Assembly: GCF_900302465.1 (NCBI RefSeq)
Contig: NZ_OMOR01000001.1
Coordinates: 2,232,001-2,296,000 of the forward strand
Source: Ascidiaceihabitans donghaensis
Lineage (GTDB): Bacteria > Pseudomonadota > Alphaproteobacteria > Rhodobacterales > Rhodobacteraceae
Length of the DNA stretch: 64,000 nt
Direction: 5' to 3'
Both the position numbers and the translations under genes were made by a program. Positions within the stretch are counted from its first letter, which is position 1; every line of letters begins with the position of its first letter. Of this stretch, positions 33,304 to 44,087 are shown piece by piece. The notes under the pieces are model-generated. The model worked only from the letters and a program-made list of their open reading frames with translations. It was not told the origin of the DNA and made no database searches.

Positions 33304-34335
33304 TCATTTCTCCACTTTTCGTCTCTGATCGTCACGACCCATGGCACTCAACACCCCAGTTTCGGCCTGAAGCTGCAAAAAACTGTCTCGATCGCGCATA
33401 CCCAACCACCCGCAGCCCACCAGCGATTGCGCGACAGCACCGCCCAACGTCGTACCCGGCCCCGCGACAACAAACAAATCGGGGGCGTATTCTTTTGCCG
33501 CAACTTGTACAGCTTTCGTAAAATTATAGGTTTCACAGATCTGGTCGCCTAAAGTGTAGGCCGCCAAGGCCTGAAGGTCCGACATGTCAGGCCACCAGAT
33601 CTTACCGGTTCCGTCAATAATGGGGACGTTGGGCGAACTCCAATCAATATCAGCCAGAGCCTGACGCCCCAGTTGCGCAACATTTTGTTGCATATGCGTG
33701 TGAAATGCAGCGTGGTTTTTCAGCCTTAATGGGAAAACGCCTTTCTGCGGAACCGCTTTTTCAAACGCAGCCAACCCGGCAATGTCCCCTGCGACAACAA
33801 GCATGCCACCCAAATCAATAGACAAAGACAACTGATGTTGAGGCTTTGACGCTATGTCTGAAATCAAGTTTAAAAGCCGCTGCTTTTCAACCTCATCACT
33901 TTGCCAGTCATCGCCAACAAAAGGATACACAGTTTGTCCGCCAACACCGTGTTCCTCCATCAAACAGCCCATGGTGTCGGCCACTTGAAAACCGTCTGGA
34001 AGCGACAAAACACTGGCAGCGGCCAAAGCCGTATACCAACCCATCGAATTGCCCGTAATCGCAACAATTTCAATATCATCTGCCAAGACCTGAGCATCCA
34101 GGGCCCCACACGCAAAGATCAGAGCCGACGCAACACTGCCAGTCGAATAGGTTTCCGGGTCAAATTTTGCGGCACCGTCAAGGTCCGACACTGTCAAGTG
34201 ACCATTCGATTTCCGATGCGCATCGAATTGTCGAACAGTGTCGTTTTCAAGCCCGTGATGCCGCGACACGTACCCCAGCTCAGGGGCATTGTACGTCCCC
34301 CGTCCAGGAAAAATCAGCACCGCGCGGCGGGTCAT
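33304..34335 (-). CDS. FabD-like acyltransferase lacking the malonate-binding Arg
   Basis: The product is 343 residues with the fold of malonyl-CoA:ACP transacylase. The nucleophile is S97 in ITGNSMGWYTAL and the catalytic His is H208 in LKNHAAFHTHM. Aligned without gaps to Escherichia coli FabD over this stretch (S92 to R117), the Arg that grips the malonyl carboxylate falls on M122, and His91 before the Ser is Asn. An uncharged acyl substrate is therefore more likely than malonyl. The C-terminal part VVAGPGTTLGGAVAQSLVG is as in FabD. The start overlaps the stop of the E1 dehydrogenase gene by 4 bases, so the two are coupled. The acceptor is unknown; no ACP gene is adjacent. Confidence 0.82.
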   Translation of the reverse strand: MTRRAVLIFPGRGTYNAPELGYVSRHHGLENDTVRQFDAHRKSNGHLTVSDLDGAAKFDPETYSTGSVASALIFACGALDAQVLADDIEIVAITGNSMGWYTALAAASVLSLPDGFQVADTMGCLMEEHGVGGQTVYPFVGDDWQSDEVEKQRLLNLISDIASKPQHQLSLSIDLGGMLVVAGDIAGLAAFEKAVPQKGVFPLRLKNHAAFHTHMQQNVAQLGRQALADIDWSSPNVPIIDGTGKIWWPDMSDLQALAAYTLGDQICETYNFTKAVQVAAKEYAPDLFVVAGPGTTLGGAVAQSLVGCGWLGMRDRDSFLQLQAETGVLSAMGRDDQRRKVEK

Positions 34336-36524
34336 GCGCCCTCTCCTGTCACCATGTTTCTGGCCATCGCAACAATTCCTTCACGGGATGGAAGTGTTGC
34401 AGAATAGGCCGGACCCGTCGCAATAAAGCTGTCTTCAGCCGCCAATATACCAACCGAATTTACGTTGTTTCGAGCCAGCAACGCAATCAGCGCATCGCCT
34501 TGTCCGCCGGTGCGTCGACATTCGTCCACGATCAATACGTGATCGCAGCCTTGAACAGCTTGCACAATTGCGGCTTCGGGCAAAGGCGCGATCCAACGCA
34601 TGTCAATAACACGCGCATTGATGTTGAGATCCTCCAAATCAACCTGCGCCTGACGAGACAGATAATGCCCATTGCCATAGCTCAGTATCGCGATGTCTGT
34701 GCCATTCCCATGCACACCGATATCGGTTAACCCAATACTCTGACGGCCCAAAGGATACGTCGACATCCAACCACCATCGCCAGTTTGTGCAAGATCGCGC
34801 ATGGGATAAAGGGCGATCGGTTCAACAAAAACCACGACCCTTTGTTCTTCACGCGCCAACCGAACGGCTTCACGCAACATGCCCACAGCATCCGCCCCAT
34901 TAGACGGGCAGGCAATAATCACGCCGGGAATATCGCGCAGAACAGCCAAGGAGTTGTCGTTGTGAAAATGCCCCCCGAAGCCCTTCTGGTACCCAAGCCC
35001 TGCGATGCGCAGCACCATTGGGTTGGTGAATTGACCATTTGAAAAGAACGGCAGCGTCGCCGCTTCCCCGCGCAATTGATCTTCGGCGTTGTGCAGATAG
35101 GCCAAGAACTGGATTTCAGGGATCGGAATAAAACCGTTGTGCGCCATGCCAATCGCAAGACCAAGGATGCTTTGTTCGTCCAACAGGCTGTCAATCACAC
35201 GGTCTGGCCCGAAACGTTGCTGCAACCGCTGCGTTACACCGTAAACCCCGCCTTTGCGCCCGACATCTTCCCCCATCATGACCGTTTCGGGATGGTCCAA
35301 CATAATGTCGGTTAAAGCCCAATTGATCAGCTTGGCCATAGGTTGCGGAGCCGCTTGTGCTTTTGCGTCACTTCCAAACACCGCTGTTCGCGTTGATGTG
35401 CTGGGTCCATTGCTTGGGGTGCAGGTGCGCTTTGGCGGGACGATGGCGGCCATAACATCTTGCGCCGTCTGCAGATGGGGCCGCGTGACGACTGTGGCCG
35501 CCACGTCTTTGACGCGTGCGGCGGTGGATGTGTAGATGTTCAAAGCATCTTCCGGCGCCAATGCCCCCGCATCCCGCAGCAAACGCACGCCGTGCAACAG
35601 TGGATCATTTGCCTCATCGGCCTCCACTTCGGACTTGGGGAGGTAACTGGTGGCGATATCCGCACCGGCGTGACCGTACAGACGTACCATTCTCAGGTGC
35701 AAAAACGCAGGTTTGCGCCGTGTACGCACATAGTCGGCAGCTGCTTGGGCCGTCGCGTATGTGTCATAGATGTCCAAACCGTCAGCCTCAAAATACGCGA
35801 CCCCTGGGCGGTGTTTCATGGATGCCGCAATCCACCCTTGTGGCGTCTTAGTCGAAATCCCGATACCGTTGTCTTCACACACAAACAGCAAAGGCAATGG
35901 CGTGGCTTGAACAGATGTCCAGCCCGCGGTGTTAAACGCCCCTTGCGCTGTGGAGTGGTTGGCAGACGCATCACCGAAACTGCACATCGCAATGCCGTCT
36001 TGCGGCAATTCCCGATGTTCCGGGGCATGTCTGCGGGCCAACCCAAGTGAAAATGCGGCCCCGACGGCTTTCGGCAAATGACTTGCGATAGTTGATGTTT
36101 GCGGCGGTATCATCAGCGACTTTGATCCCAGAACTTTGTGCCGCCCGCCGCTTGTCGGGTCTTCGGAGGAACAGGCAAAACTAAGCAGCATGTCCCATGT
36201 TATCGTCTGCCCTGGCACTTGATCCGCGCGCGCGATTTGAAAAGCTGCATCGCGGTAGTGCAAAAACGCAATGTCATCGGGACGTAACGCACGTGCCACA
36301 GCCGCCATCCCCTCGTGGCCAGACGATCCGATAGTGTAAAAACCCTGCCCCGCCTTTTGCATGTCACGGCTGGTCAAGTCCAACGCCCGGCTCAGGCAGC
36401 CTGCCCGAAAAATCTCGATTGCTGTGGTTGCGTCCAAACCCGATTTTGGCGCAGCACCCTGAGGGAAATCCTGCGCCTGTACGCGCCGCAAGAAATTCTC
36501 ATGCACGATTTTTGCGCGGTCCAT
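34332..36524 (-). CDS. Single-chain 2-oxoacid dehydrogenase E1 (alpha and beta parts fused)
   Basis: The product is 730 residues, a thiamine-diphosphate enzyme with E1-alpha (about 40-350) and E1-beta (about 395-725) in one chain. The alpha part has GSSGHEGMAAVARALRP, the ThDP/Mg motif G184-D-A to N219 (FGDASANHSTAQ then VCEDNGIGIS) and RLYGHAGADIATS. The beta part starts GEDVGRKGGVYGVT and includes PEIQFLAYLHNAEDQLRGEA. Fused E1 resembles branched-chain 2-oxoacid dehydrogenases of several groups. No E2 (lipoyl) or E3 gene is nearby. The ATG at 36524 has AAGGAT upstream and was preferred over an in-frame start at 36557. It precedes the FabD-like gene with a 4-base overlap. Substrate identity is not determinable from sequence. 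Confidence 0.92.
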   Translation of the reverse strand: MDRAKIVHENFLRRVQAQDFPQGAAPKSGLDATTAIEIFRAGCLSRALDLTSRDMQKAGQGFYTIGSSGHEGMAAVARALRPDDIAFLHYRDAAFQIARADQVPGQTITWDMLLSFACSSEDPTSGGRHKVLGSKSLMIPPQTSTIASHLPKAVGAAFSLGLARRHAPEHRELPQDGIAMCSFGDASANHSTAQGAFNTAGWTSVQATPLPLLFVCEDNGIGISTKTPQGWIAASMKHRPGVAYFEADGLDIYDTYATAQAAADYVRTRRKPAFLHLRMVRLYGHAGADIATSYLPKSEVEADEANDPLLHGVRLLRDAGALAPEDALNIYTSTAARVKDVAATVVTRPHLQTAQDVMAAIVPPKRTCTPSNGPSTSTRTAVFGSDAKAQAAPQPMAKLINWALTDIMLDHPETVMMGEDVGRKGGVYGVTQRLQQRFGPDRVIDSLLDEQSILGLAIGMAHNGFIPIPEIQFLAYLHNAEDQLRGEAATLPFFSNGQFTNPMVLRIAGLGYQKGFGGHFHNDNSLAVLRDIPGVIIACPSNGADAVGMLREAVRLAREEQRVVVFVEPIALYPMRDLAQTGDGGWMSTYPLGRQSIGLTDIGVHGNGTDIAILSYGNGHYLSRQAQVDLEDLNINARVIDMRWIAPLPEAAIVQAVQGCDHVLIVDECRRTGGQGDALIALLARNNVNSVGILAAEDSFIATGPAYSATLPSREGIVAMARNMVTGEGA

Positions 36525-42008: not shown

Positions 42009-42467
42009 TCACATCTCTGCCTTTTTCTCCCAAGACCCGCTTGCCTCCGACCAATATTGCGCCGACGCCCCTGCCGCTTTCAGGGTCTTCCATTGCCCCC
42101 GCGCCCGGTCCAAAGCACGGTCATCATTGCCATCGAACAACACGCAAACGCGGTCCAGCGTTGCGATTTCATCGGCGGTCACGTCTGCACCATCGATGCT
42201 CATGACACAGTGCGGTGAATTAGCGGATTGGGCTTGCGTGGTCAGCAAGATGGGTTGGTCCGCATCATGTGAACCGCCTGCGATCCCATGGGGCAGAAAA
42301 CTGTCGTCTGCCCCCATCCACAGCTTTTCGTCCAGCCACATCATGCGTCCCGGATCAACACCACGCACGGCCACGCGCCACCCCGCCTGCCCGGCTTTTC
42401 CCAGCAACATGGTCAGCGTCTCATCCATTGAACGGCGCGTTAGATGATAGAAATAGGCGGCCCCCAT
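42009..42467 (-). CDS. holC: DNA polymerase III chi subunit
   Basis: The product is 152 residues of the HolC family, which joins the clamp-loader to single-stranded-DNA-binding protein. AAYFYHLTRRSMDETLTMLL is typical of its N-terminus, and a helix-rich middle DADQPILLTTQAQSANSP follows. The start codon (42467) shares one base with the pepA stop (TGATG), the usual pepA-holC operon arrangement in proteobacteria. The family motif is modest in strength, so the operon context adds to confidence. Confidence 0.88.
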   Translation of the reverse strand: MGAAYFYHLTRRSMDETLTMLLGKAGQAGWRVAVRGVDPGRMMWLDEKLWMGADDSFLPHGIAGGSHDADQPILLTTQAQSANSPHCVMSIDGADVTADEIATLDRVCVLFDGNDDRALDRARGQWKTLKAAGASAQYWSEASGSWEKKAEM

Positions 42468-43939
42468 CAGCCGTCCTCGTAGACGTCCGACACCAAGCGG
42501 TTCAATGCCATAACACCCCACCCTGTGGCCCCTGTGGGTGCCAGTGCTGTTTCGGATTTCACCGATGCAACACCTGCGATATCCAAGTGGATCCACGGTG
42601 TGTCATCTTTCACAAACCGCTGCAAAAACTGCGCCGCAGTGATGGATCCTGCAGGACGCCCGCCGATATTTTTCATGTCAGCGATGCGGCTTTTCAACAT
42701 GTCGTCATATGCGTCACCCAAAGGCATGCGCCACGCGCCTTCGCCTTCGGCCTCAGCCGCTTTCAAAAATGCATTGCAGAACGTGTCATTGTTAGAAAAC
42801 ACCCCGGCGTTTTCATGCCCCAATCCGATGATGATCGCACCTGTCAGTGTTGCCAGATCAATCATTGCCTTGGGGGCAAAACGGTCCTGCGCGTACCACA
42901 TCACATCACACAACACCAAACGACCTTCGGCATCTGTGTTGATGACCTCGACAGTATCGCCTTTCATGGATGTGATCACATCCCCGGGGCGGGTTGCATT
43001 GCCAGACGGCATGTTTTCCACCAAACCGACAAGCCCTACAACATTGGCTTTCGCACCGCGCAACGCCAATGCACGCATCGTGCCCGCCACAACGCCTGCG
43101 CCCCCCATGTCCATGGTCATGTCTTCCATGCCGCCTGCAGGTTTCAGGCTGATGCCGCCAGTGTCAAACACCACGCCTTTGCCGATCAGCGCCAGTGGTG
43201 CGTCGCCCTCAGTGCCACCGTTCCATTCCATCACGACGACTTTGGACGGGCTATCCGAACCTTGACCAACCGACAAAAGCGTTCGCATTCCAAGGCTTGC
43301 CAGCGCTTCCTCATCCAAAACCTCTACCTTCAATCCCAAGTCGCGCATGTCTTCCAAGCGGTTGGCAAATTCTGTGGTTGTCAGAATGTTCGCAGGTTCG
43401 TTTGTCAAATCGCGCGTCATGAATGCGCCTTCCGCGATGGCCAACAAAGGCGAAGCGGCTTGCGTTGCGGCGTCGGGTTTGGAGCACATAATCACCACAG
43501 ACCCGGAAATGTCATCGCTGCCGGTCTTGTGATCCACAAAGGTGTAATCCCGCATCGCCAGTCCAAGTGCTACGTTTTCGACACCGCGCAAAGGCCCGGC
43601 GGCCACCAACACTTCAGCCGTGCCGCGCAGCTTGGCCAAAGTGGCCCCTGTTTTACGCGACTGCACAACCGTCGACCGACGCGCCACACGAACAATATCA
43701 AGCGCAATGGCTGCCATGCCAACAGGCATATTCAGCGTAAATGCCTGTCCGGGCTTGGTTTTTGCGAAAGCATCGCCTTCTACAGCGCGTGCGACTGCAC
43801 CTTTGGTCAAGGTGTTGCAACGCCGCGCATTGCTGTCCAAACGGCCCTCTTCATCCACAAAGATTGCCACACGGCCTGTGTGATCTTTCAGCTTTGCGAT
43901 GTCCGTCATCTCGAAACGGATGGCTGTTGGTTTTCTCAT
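42467..43939 (-). CDS. pepA: Leucyl aminopeptidase (M17)
   Basis: Cytosolic hexameric zinc/manganese aminopeptidase of the M17 family, 490 residues. The catalytic domain carries GKGVVFDTGGISLKP (Lys and Asp ligands), MEDMTMDMGGAGVVAG (Asp) and the signature NTDAEGRLVLCD (Asp and Glu ligands plus the catalytic Arg). The N-terminal domain (about 1-170) is the non-catalytic A-type macro-like domain. In some bacteria PepA also binds DNA; nothing here shows that. It is followed by holC with a 1-base overlap. Confidence 0.96.
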   Translation of the reverse strand: MRKPTAIRFEMTDIAKLKDHTGRVAIFVDEEGRLDSNARRCNTLTKGAVARAVEGDAFAKTKPGQAFTLNMPVGMAAIALDIVRVARRSTVVQSRKTGATLAKLRGTAEVLVAAGPLRGVENVALGLAMRDYTFVDHKTGSDDISGSVVIMCSKPDAATQAASPLLAIAEGAFMTRDLTNEPANILTTTEFANRLEDMRDLGLKVEVLDEEALASLGMRTLLSVGQGSDSPSKVVVMEWNGGTEGDAPLALIGKGVVFDTGGISLKPAGGMEDMTMDMGGAGVVAGTMRALALRGAKANVVGLVGLVENMPSGNATRPGDVITSMKGDTVEVINTDAEGRLVLCDVMWYAQDRFAPKAMIDLATLTGAIIIGLGHENAGVFSNNDTFCNAFLKAAEAEGEGAWRMPLGDAYDDMLKSRIADMKNIGGRPAGSITAAQFLQRFVKDDTPWIHLDIAGVASVKSETALAPTGATGWGVMALNRLVSDVYEDG

Positions 43940-44087
43940 TGGGGGACCCTTTCATGGAGGCGGCATGCGATGTTTCGCCAAGACCTAGCGCGACCGCTAT
44001 GAAAAAACCAGATAACAGTTTTCCCCGCGCCCCGCTTGCCCTATTGTGGCTGCAAACGAAAAACACGACAGACCTTGGGGGAAATGA

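Follow-up and report, generated by a model that had tools for sequence, protein, structure and literature searches.

A fused thiamine-dependent E1 and a FabD-like protein as a probable two-gene 2-oxoadipate dehydrogenase module of bacterial lysine degradation

Which reaction is carried out by a thiamine diphosphate (ThDP)-dependent E1 component whose gene is joined to that of a FabD-like protein? The question is raised by two overlapping genes of Ascidiaceihabitans donghaensis (Rhodobacteraceae; assembly GCF_900302465.1), which lie in a stretch of 64,000 nucleotides (C1:2232001-2296000 of the host genome, C1 being contig NZ_OMOR01000001.1) that is called the window here; coordinates are window positions unless preceded by C1. 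A preliminary description made from the letters of the sequence recognized an alpha-beta fused E1 and a FabD-fold protein overlapping by ATGA, and both open reading frames (ORFs) are as it described. It also proposed, as the product of the pair, an uncharged acyl group derived from a 2-oxoacid. The analysis reported here points to another substrate. The pair is probably (probability about 0.6) a 2-oxoadipate dehydrogenase module that consists of two genes and serves lysine degradation, and gene context makes it quite likely that its pathway step is the conversion of 2-oxoadipate to glutaryl-CoA.

The E1 and FabD-like genes form a conserved, co-diverging unit. The E1 gene is the immediate upstream neighbor at all of the best 80 FabD-like loci of the genome_contigs set, which are mostly from Rhodobacteraceae, many of them from Ruegeria, and therefore are not independent of one another. 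Among 41 near genomes, the window genome included, 16 carry the FabD-like gene (match with E <= 1e-80), and the E1 gene adjoins it in each of them. The same was found for all 16 carriers among 398 genomes sampled evenly from the phylum (15 loci fetched wide plus the window, set below against the 382 other genomes), and 6 of these carriers are listed as sharing only the phylum with the window and thus fall outside its class. The gene pair, for which the preliminary description had proposed a survey, is conserved. The distances of the E1 and FabD-like proteins are correlated over 27 loci (r = 0.907), a value that none of 5,000 permutations reached. An in-frame ATGA occurs no more than 60 bp from the start of the FabD-like gene at 78 of the 80 contig loci, a loose test that about 1 in 7 would pass by chance, and the overlap suggests that translation of the two genes may be coupled. 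A copy with 40% identity is carried by a Shewanella plasmid.

The sole carrier examined that has no intact adjoining FabD-like gene is relative G010 (L154 10640-12080), in which the E1 frame is open and 83% identical, whereas only a small N-terminal part of the FabD-like gene is left and is succeeded by what resembles a transposase (IS3 type by eye); it is a natural instance of the E1 on its own. At L036 (in G020) and L116, the E1 frame is in pieces and the FabD-like frame is open, through either assembly error or decay. An apparent E1-FabD fusion at L116, a locus from a metagenome bin, was discounted because the E1 frame is broken there.

The substrate is suggested by the neighbors of the pair. 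In lysine breakdown, 2-aminoadipate is transaminated, and 2-oxoadipate and CoA are then converted to glutaryl-CoA and CO2. The genes that recur around the pair encode glutaryl-CoA dehydrogenase (GCDH) upstream and piperideine-6-carboxylate dehydrogenase (P6CDH) downstream, together with pipecolate-oxidase-like (AmaA-like), saccharopine-dehydrogenase-like, and aminotransferase proteins. These five served as markers, for which tblastn matches were accepted above set scores; a marker was counted as near if it shared the strand of the pair and was no more than 400 bp away. The downstream aldehyde dehydrogenase belongs to the curated family of L-piperidine-6-carboxylate dehydrogenases (818.9 bits versus a cut-off of 730), and the saccharopine-dehydrogenase-like neighbor was recognized by Pfam and by its solved relatives. 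For the acyl-CoA dehydrogenase upstream of the Ruegeria pair, the best PDB match is a protein named "acyl-CoA dehydrogenase" (681 bits), and the next ones are glutaryl-CoA dehydrogenases (640 and 556 bits), the 556-bit match (1siq/1sir) being the human enzyme. Annotation beside the pair on a Ruegeria plasmid gives an aminotransferase, an acyl-CoA dehydrogenase, a thiamine pyrophosphate (TPP) enzyme, and an "ACP S-malonyltransferase," the last three of which are also annotated on the Shewanella plasmid.

At least one marker was present at 49 of the 80 contig loci (AmaA-like at 35, aminotransferase at 15, saccharopine-like at 12, P6CDH at 10, and GCDH at 6), and at least one was near at 42 of them (33, 12 to 13, 2, 5, and 6, respectively). 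Near markers were found in 9 of the 16 phylum carriers, with GCDH in 7, P6CDH in 4, and either of these two in 9; as a rough figure, a given single gene is expected inside an 8-kb neighborhood by chance in about 0.2% of cases in genomes of about 4 Mb. Linkage to GCDH was seen in members of the window's family (G427 and G429) and likewise in genomes from outside its class (G165, G357, G359, G369, and G401). At six loci (L094, L120, L158, L159, L162, and L181), the pair stands between GCDH, its immediate upstream neighbor, and P6CDH, its immediate downstream neighbor. Since the flanking genes make 2-aminoadipate and consume glutaryl-CoA, the step that remains after transamination is that from 2-oxoadipate and CoA to glutaryl-CoA and CO2, and it is this step that the six loci leave open. 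Of the activities which the conversion needs, the pair would supply two, decarboxylation by the E1 and acyl transfer by the Ser-His enzyme. GCDH was also found somewhere in the genome in 15 of the 16 carriers and in 161 of the 382 others (Fisher P = 3e-5, in statistics that, as for P6CDH below, ignore the kinship of the genomes), and the GCDH of the window genome is 81% identical to that of Ruegeria. The substrate is assigned from these neighbors, which would also suit a different 2-oxoacid of lysine metabolism, such as 2-oxo-6-aminohexanoate, or 2-oxoglutarate, with the linkage to GCDH merely regulatory; such a substrate is very unlikely given the flanking of the pair by GCDH and P6CDH at the six loci, where the step to glutaryl-CoA is the one left open.

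Three observations on the neighborhoods stand apart from this argument. In G427 and G429 (L162 and L181), there are three GCDH-like genes each, one of which adjoins the pair, and in G429, the P6CDH frame beside the pair holds two stops. On plasmid pPN3F2_1 of Shewanella aestuarii (L125), the pair and a GCDH gene some 400 bp upstream of it are bordered by a nar nitrate reductase operon on one side and NarK on the other, and transposase genes are nearby; the region is perhaps a mobile lysine-degradation cassette. A first clustering gave an acyl-CoA dehydrogenase at 26 of the 80 loci, a figure that was dropped, as a true GCDH query gave 6 of 80, the rest being another acyl-CoA dehydrogenase.

Several results weigh against a role in lysine degradation. 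The pair of the window itself has no lysine marker anywhere in the 64 kb, and the window genome gave no match to the P6CDH model NF050084 at 1e-180. No marker was found at 31 of the 80 contig loci and in 7 of the 16 phylum carriers, the window among them, and in carrier G419 GCDH was not found at 1e-120. Co-occurrence with P6CDH is only moderate (8 of 16 carriers versus 74 of 382 others, P = 0.007). None of the NCBIfam GCDH models scored above its cut-off on the upstream acyl-CoA dehydrogenase, and the FAD enzyme next to the Ruegeria pair is closest to L-pipecolate oxidase AmaA at 419 against a cut-off of 600. The counts from the related contig loci are given without tree correction or a random-neighborhood control. 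HglS, an unrelated enzyme that acts on the same metabolite in another described bacterial route (DUF1338; 2-oxoadipate to D-2-hydroxyglutarate), was not matched in the window genome, which favors the proposed role, but its HGLS domain (PF07063) occurs in 5 of the 16 carriers, once at full length and four times as short matches of 78 to 97 bits. Finally, no oxidant or carrier was identified for the reaction of the pair, and if the E1 used SucB, the core of the latter might produce glutaryl-CoA by itself, like human DLST, so that the FabD-like protein would not be needed. An anticorrelation between HglS and the pair was looked for and gained no support, as full-length HglS (>400 bits) occurs in 1 of 16 carriers and 44 of 382 others (P = 1) and, within the genomes carrying P6CDH, in 1 of 8 with the pair and 28 of 74 others (P = 0.25).

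The E1 protein fits the class of 2-oxoacid dehydrogenase E1 components of the ThDP-dependent alpha2beta2 type, with a predicted ThDP site and catalytic Glu and His. Its E1_dh (94.6 bits), Transket_pyr (87.4 bits), and Transketolase_C (58.4 bits) domains all exceed the Pfam cut-offs. The nearest PDB relatives are alpha2beta2 E1 subunits of the pyruvate dehydrogenase (PDH) and branched-chain 2-oxoacid dehydrogenase (BCKDH) type, followed by DXS and transketolase, and no chain of the 2-oxoglutarate dehydrogenase (OGDH)/DHTKD1 type is among the 44 PDB sequences that match at E <= 0.001. Residues G184, D185, H285, E450, and H521 are invariant in 31 aligned E1 proteins of the pair, and their PDH counterparts were identified by alignment with the PDH E1 of the host genome; we take them to be the residues that serve decarboxylation and reductive acylation in PDH. 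The ThDP motif reads GDA where GDG is usual. Residues H149, H190, H478, and R485, among 18 listed positions, are invariant in the same 31 proteins and uncharged in the host PDH E1 and are thus candidates for substrate contacts.

The FabD-like protein is predicted to have the FabD fold with a Ser-His dyad. Its AlphaFold2 model has a mean pLDDT of 95.4, and the first 20 PDB hits of a Foldseek search with the model are all FabD/MCAT or acyltransferase domain structures. Like FabD (malonyl-CoA:acyl carrier protein [ACP] transacylase), it has a Ser nucleophile and a catalytic His; unlike FabD, it scores far below the family cut-off (TIGR00128, 39.4 bits versus 260.9), and Pfam Acyl_transf_1 is likewise under its cut-off (19.9 versus 32.7 bits). 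The best NCBIfam match is MdcH, the epsilon subunit of malonate decarboxylase, yet this too falls below the cut-off (TIGR03131, 57.9 versus 297.9 bits). MdcH is a FabD-like enzyme that serves a swinging-arm carrier, and no malonate decarboxylase genes were recognized by eye among the recurring neighbors of the pair.

The active site of the FabD-like protein differs from that of FabD at three places. Ordinary FabD-type ORFs (one from the host and four from relatives) have PGQG, GHSLGE, and an Arg 25 residues after the Ser in five of five, and at the same places the window protein has PGRG, GNSMGW, and Met. The preliminary description was correct in two of these changes, Arg117 to Met and the His before the Ser to Asn, as the region from Ser97 to Met122 aligns without gaps to FabD structure 3k89 and both residues are nearly or fully constant in the family (91 distinct sequences, many closely related; Table 1). 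It did not name the third, in which Gln11 of FabD is replaced by Arg12. This Arg is also present in 15 of 15 diverse rows of the family, 12 of which are 36 to 47% identical to the window protein, whereas the host FabD has Gln. Passages of a study on Escherichia coli FabD describe a salt bridge of Arg117 with the malonyl carboxylate and a part of the oxyanion hole formed by the main chain of Gln11 (PMC10054515). Judged from these alignments, Arg12 is likely a new carboxylate clamp in the pocket, and the charge may have been moved, with Arg117 lost and Arg12 gained, so that a dicarboxylic acyl group of greater length can be bound. The preliminary description had held that it would be contradicted by an Arg at another place of the malonate pocket, and Arg12 is probably such a residue. 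The loss of Arg117, real as it is, is not unique to this family either: passages of PMC11775670 describe acyl hydrolases of trans-AT polyketide synthases (PKS), of the PksD type, that are FabD-like, have no Arg117, and are altered in the residue before the Ser. The hydrolases keep Gln or His at the oxyanion residue (Gln12 in PksD), whereas the FabD-like family has Arg12 throughout, and no PKS context was seen around the pair.

These residues bear on the uncharged acyl group, branched or short, that the preliminary description had the pair pass to a carrier or a small molecule. The loss of the malonate Arg and the closeness of the E1 sequence to E1 components of the pyruvate and branched-chain types are both in keeping with such a product, which nevertheless appears very improbable: Arg12 was gained, the E1 has additional invariant charged residues compared with the host PDH E1, the informative neighbors are lysine and glutaryl-CoA genes that point to the dicarboxylates 2-oxoadipate and glutaryl, and no carrier gene recurs. 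The last point comes from a search of 102 loci of unequal length, in which ORFs of at least 60 amino acids were compared with profiles made from seven domains of the window genome, four of them lipoyl and three ACP. The lipoyl profile gave only weak hits, to one 345-amino-acid ORF of L069, and the ACP profile gave only a single ACP, which is in L100 at a distance of 5.7 kb, so that the associated carrier or lipoyl-domain gene sought by the preliminary description did not emerge.

Table 1. Positions of the E1 and FabD-like genes and of their key residues in the window
Feature	Position	Strand	Evidence
Alpha-beta fused ThDP-dependent E1, 730 aa, proposed to decarboxylate 2-oxoadipate	34332..36524	-	Pfam domains, PDB relatives, invariant residues
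E1 His521 codon, beta-half His (His of PDH GAQHSQ)	34962..34964	-	Invariant; aligned to host PdhB
FabD-fold protein, 343 aa, proposed glutaryl transferase in place of the E2 catalytic core	33304..34335	-	AlphaFold2, Foldseek; below fabD and mdcH cut-offs
Asn96-Ser97 codons, nucleophile motif GNSMGWY	34045..34050	-	Invariant, 91/91
Met122 codon, place of FabD Arg117	33970..33972	-	Kept in 90/91; ungapped alignment to FabD
His212 codon, place of FabD catalytic His201	33700..33702	-	Invariant, 91/91; aligned to host FabD FH motif
Arg12 codon, place of FabD Gln11, candidate omega-carboxylate clamp	34300..34302	-	Arg in 91/91
ATGA stop/start overlap of the E1 and FabD-like genes	34332..34335	-	Sequence

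The pair is not a classical 2-oxoacid dehydrogenase complex, as no dedicated lipoyl E2 is encoded with or for the E1. A search with PF00198 gave only two E2 genes in the window genome, both outside the window. One (C1:948457-949932) has two lipoyl domains and was taken as SucB, and the other (C1:1607499) adjoins the gene of PDH E1beta, which bears one further lipoyl domain. Five other Biotin_lipoyl hits of the genome were taken as a group for biotin domains, and GcvH had no match in it. The preliminary description, which had reported neither E2 nor E3 nearby and supposed a transfer without a classical lipoyl E2, thus holds for the E2; E3 genes were not searched for.

A possible mechanism for the proposed 2-oxoadipate dehydrogenase follows from these components, with its chemistry and electron acceptor both inferred. 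Lysine would be converted through 2-aminoadipate to 2-oxoadipate, which the E1 would decarboxylate on ThDP. The E1 would then reductively acylate a lipoyl arm borrowed from OGDH or PDH, here that of the SucB-like E2 with its two lipoyl domains, PdhB, or PdhC. A borrowed arm is suggested because the E1 keeps the residues for reductive acylation but has no E2 of its own and no recurrent carrier. The FabD-like protein would move the glutaryl group from the lipoyl arm to Ser97, with Arg12 holding the far carboxylate, and then to CoA. The general E3 of the cell would reoxidize the arm, and GCDH would carry glutaryl-CoA on to crotonyl-CoA. The offloading of a borrowed lipoyl arm by the FabD-like protein, relatives of which shuttle acyl groups between CoA and a phosphopantetheine arm that swings, can in its details be offered only tentatively. 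A quite unlikely variant dispenses with E2 and lipoyl arm altogether, the acyl group passing from ThDP of the E1 straight to the Ser of the FabD-like protein and then to CoA, and the two electrons to another acceptor. Such a route, if true, would have evolved independently as a counterpart to the design of the pyruvate and 2-oxoglutarate dehydrogenases, and only if the lipoyl arm plays no part would the system be categorically new.

The human 2-oxoadipate dehydrogenase complex (DHTKD1 as E1a, DLST as E2, and DLD as E3) resembles the pair in the proposed reaction, in the lysine pathway, and in an E2 shared with OGDH. It differs in its E1, that of the window being of the PDH/BCKDH type and not the OGDH/DHTKD1 type, and the pair adds the FabD-like partner. 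The E1 could by analogy act alone as a 2-oxoadipate E1 on the SucB core, with the FabD-like protein as a helper, for instance a hydrolase that clears mischarged lipoyl arms or acyl-CoA. In accordance with this, DHTKD1 partners DLST in humans, the E2 taken as SucB has two lipoyl domains, the acyl hydrolases in the passages of PMC11775670 are also FabD-like proteins without Arg117, and G010 keeps the E1 (83%) with only a remnant of its partner. A helper is unlikely all the same, for the hydrolases have strictly Gln or His at the Gln11 position where this family has an invariant Arg, and the two genes adjoin in every carrier examined but G010 and co-diverge, beyond the need of an optional helper.

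Glutaryl-CoA has another known use in this group of bacteria. Passages of PMC7645780 report that Alphaproteobacteria build pimeloyl-ACP with BioZ from lysine-derived glutaryl-CoA, and the FabD-like protein could be a glutaryl-CoA:ACP transferase for biotin synthesis by this route. This is extremely improbable, as the BioZ route is described for alphaproteobacteria and the pair accompanied by GCDH is found also on the Shewanella plasmid and outside the class of the window, and biotin genes were not recognized by eye in the recurring neighbor clusters.

The proposed 2-oxoadipate dehydrogenase module would occupy a step for which the enzyme in marine Rhodobacteraceae and in, for example, Shewanella appears unassigned in open-licence literature. 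In Phaeobacter inhibens, lysine is partly degraded via pipecolate and 2-aminoadipate to glutaryl-CoA, 2-oxoadipate not being detected, and the passages of this work name no enzyme for the conversion of 2-oxoadipate to glutaryl-CoA (PMC5653290). Both proteins come from known superfamilies, and their combination and role appear undescribed in the same literature. The labels "thiamine pyrophosphate-dependent enzyme" and "ACP S-malonyltransferase," given in two plasmid records, hide the function of the pair. If the assignment is true, a gap in the pathway is filled, a misannotation is corrected, and a FabD-fold enzyme is shown to do the acyltransferase work of an E2.

Elsewhere in the window, a 577-amino-acid ORF without a Pfam match (42269-43999, forward strand) is an antisense shadow of a cytosol aminopeptidase gene (42470-43939, reverse strand; Peptidase_M17, 405.8 bits).

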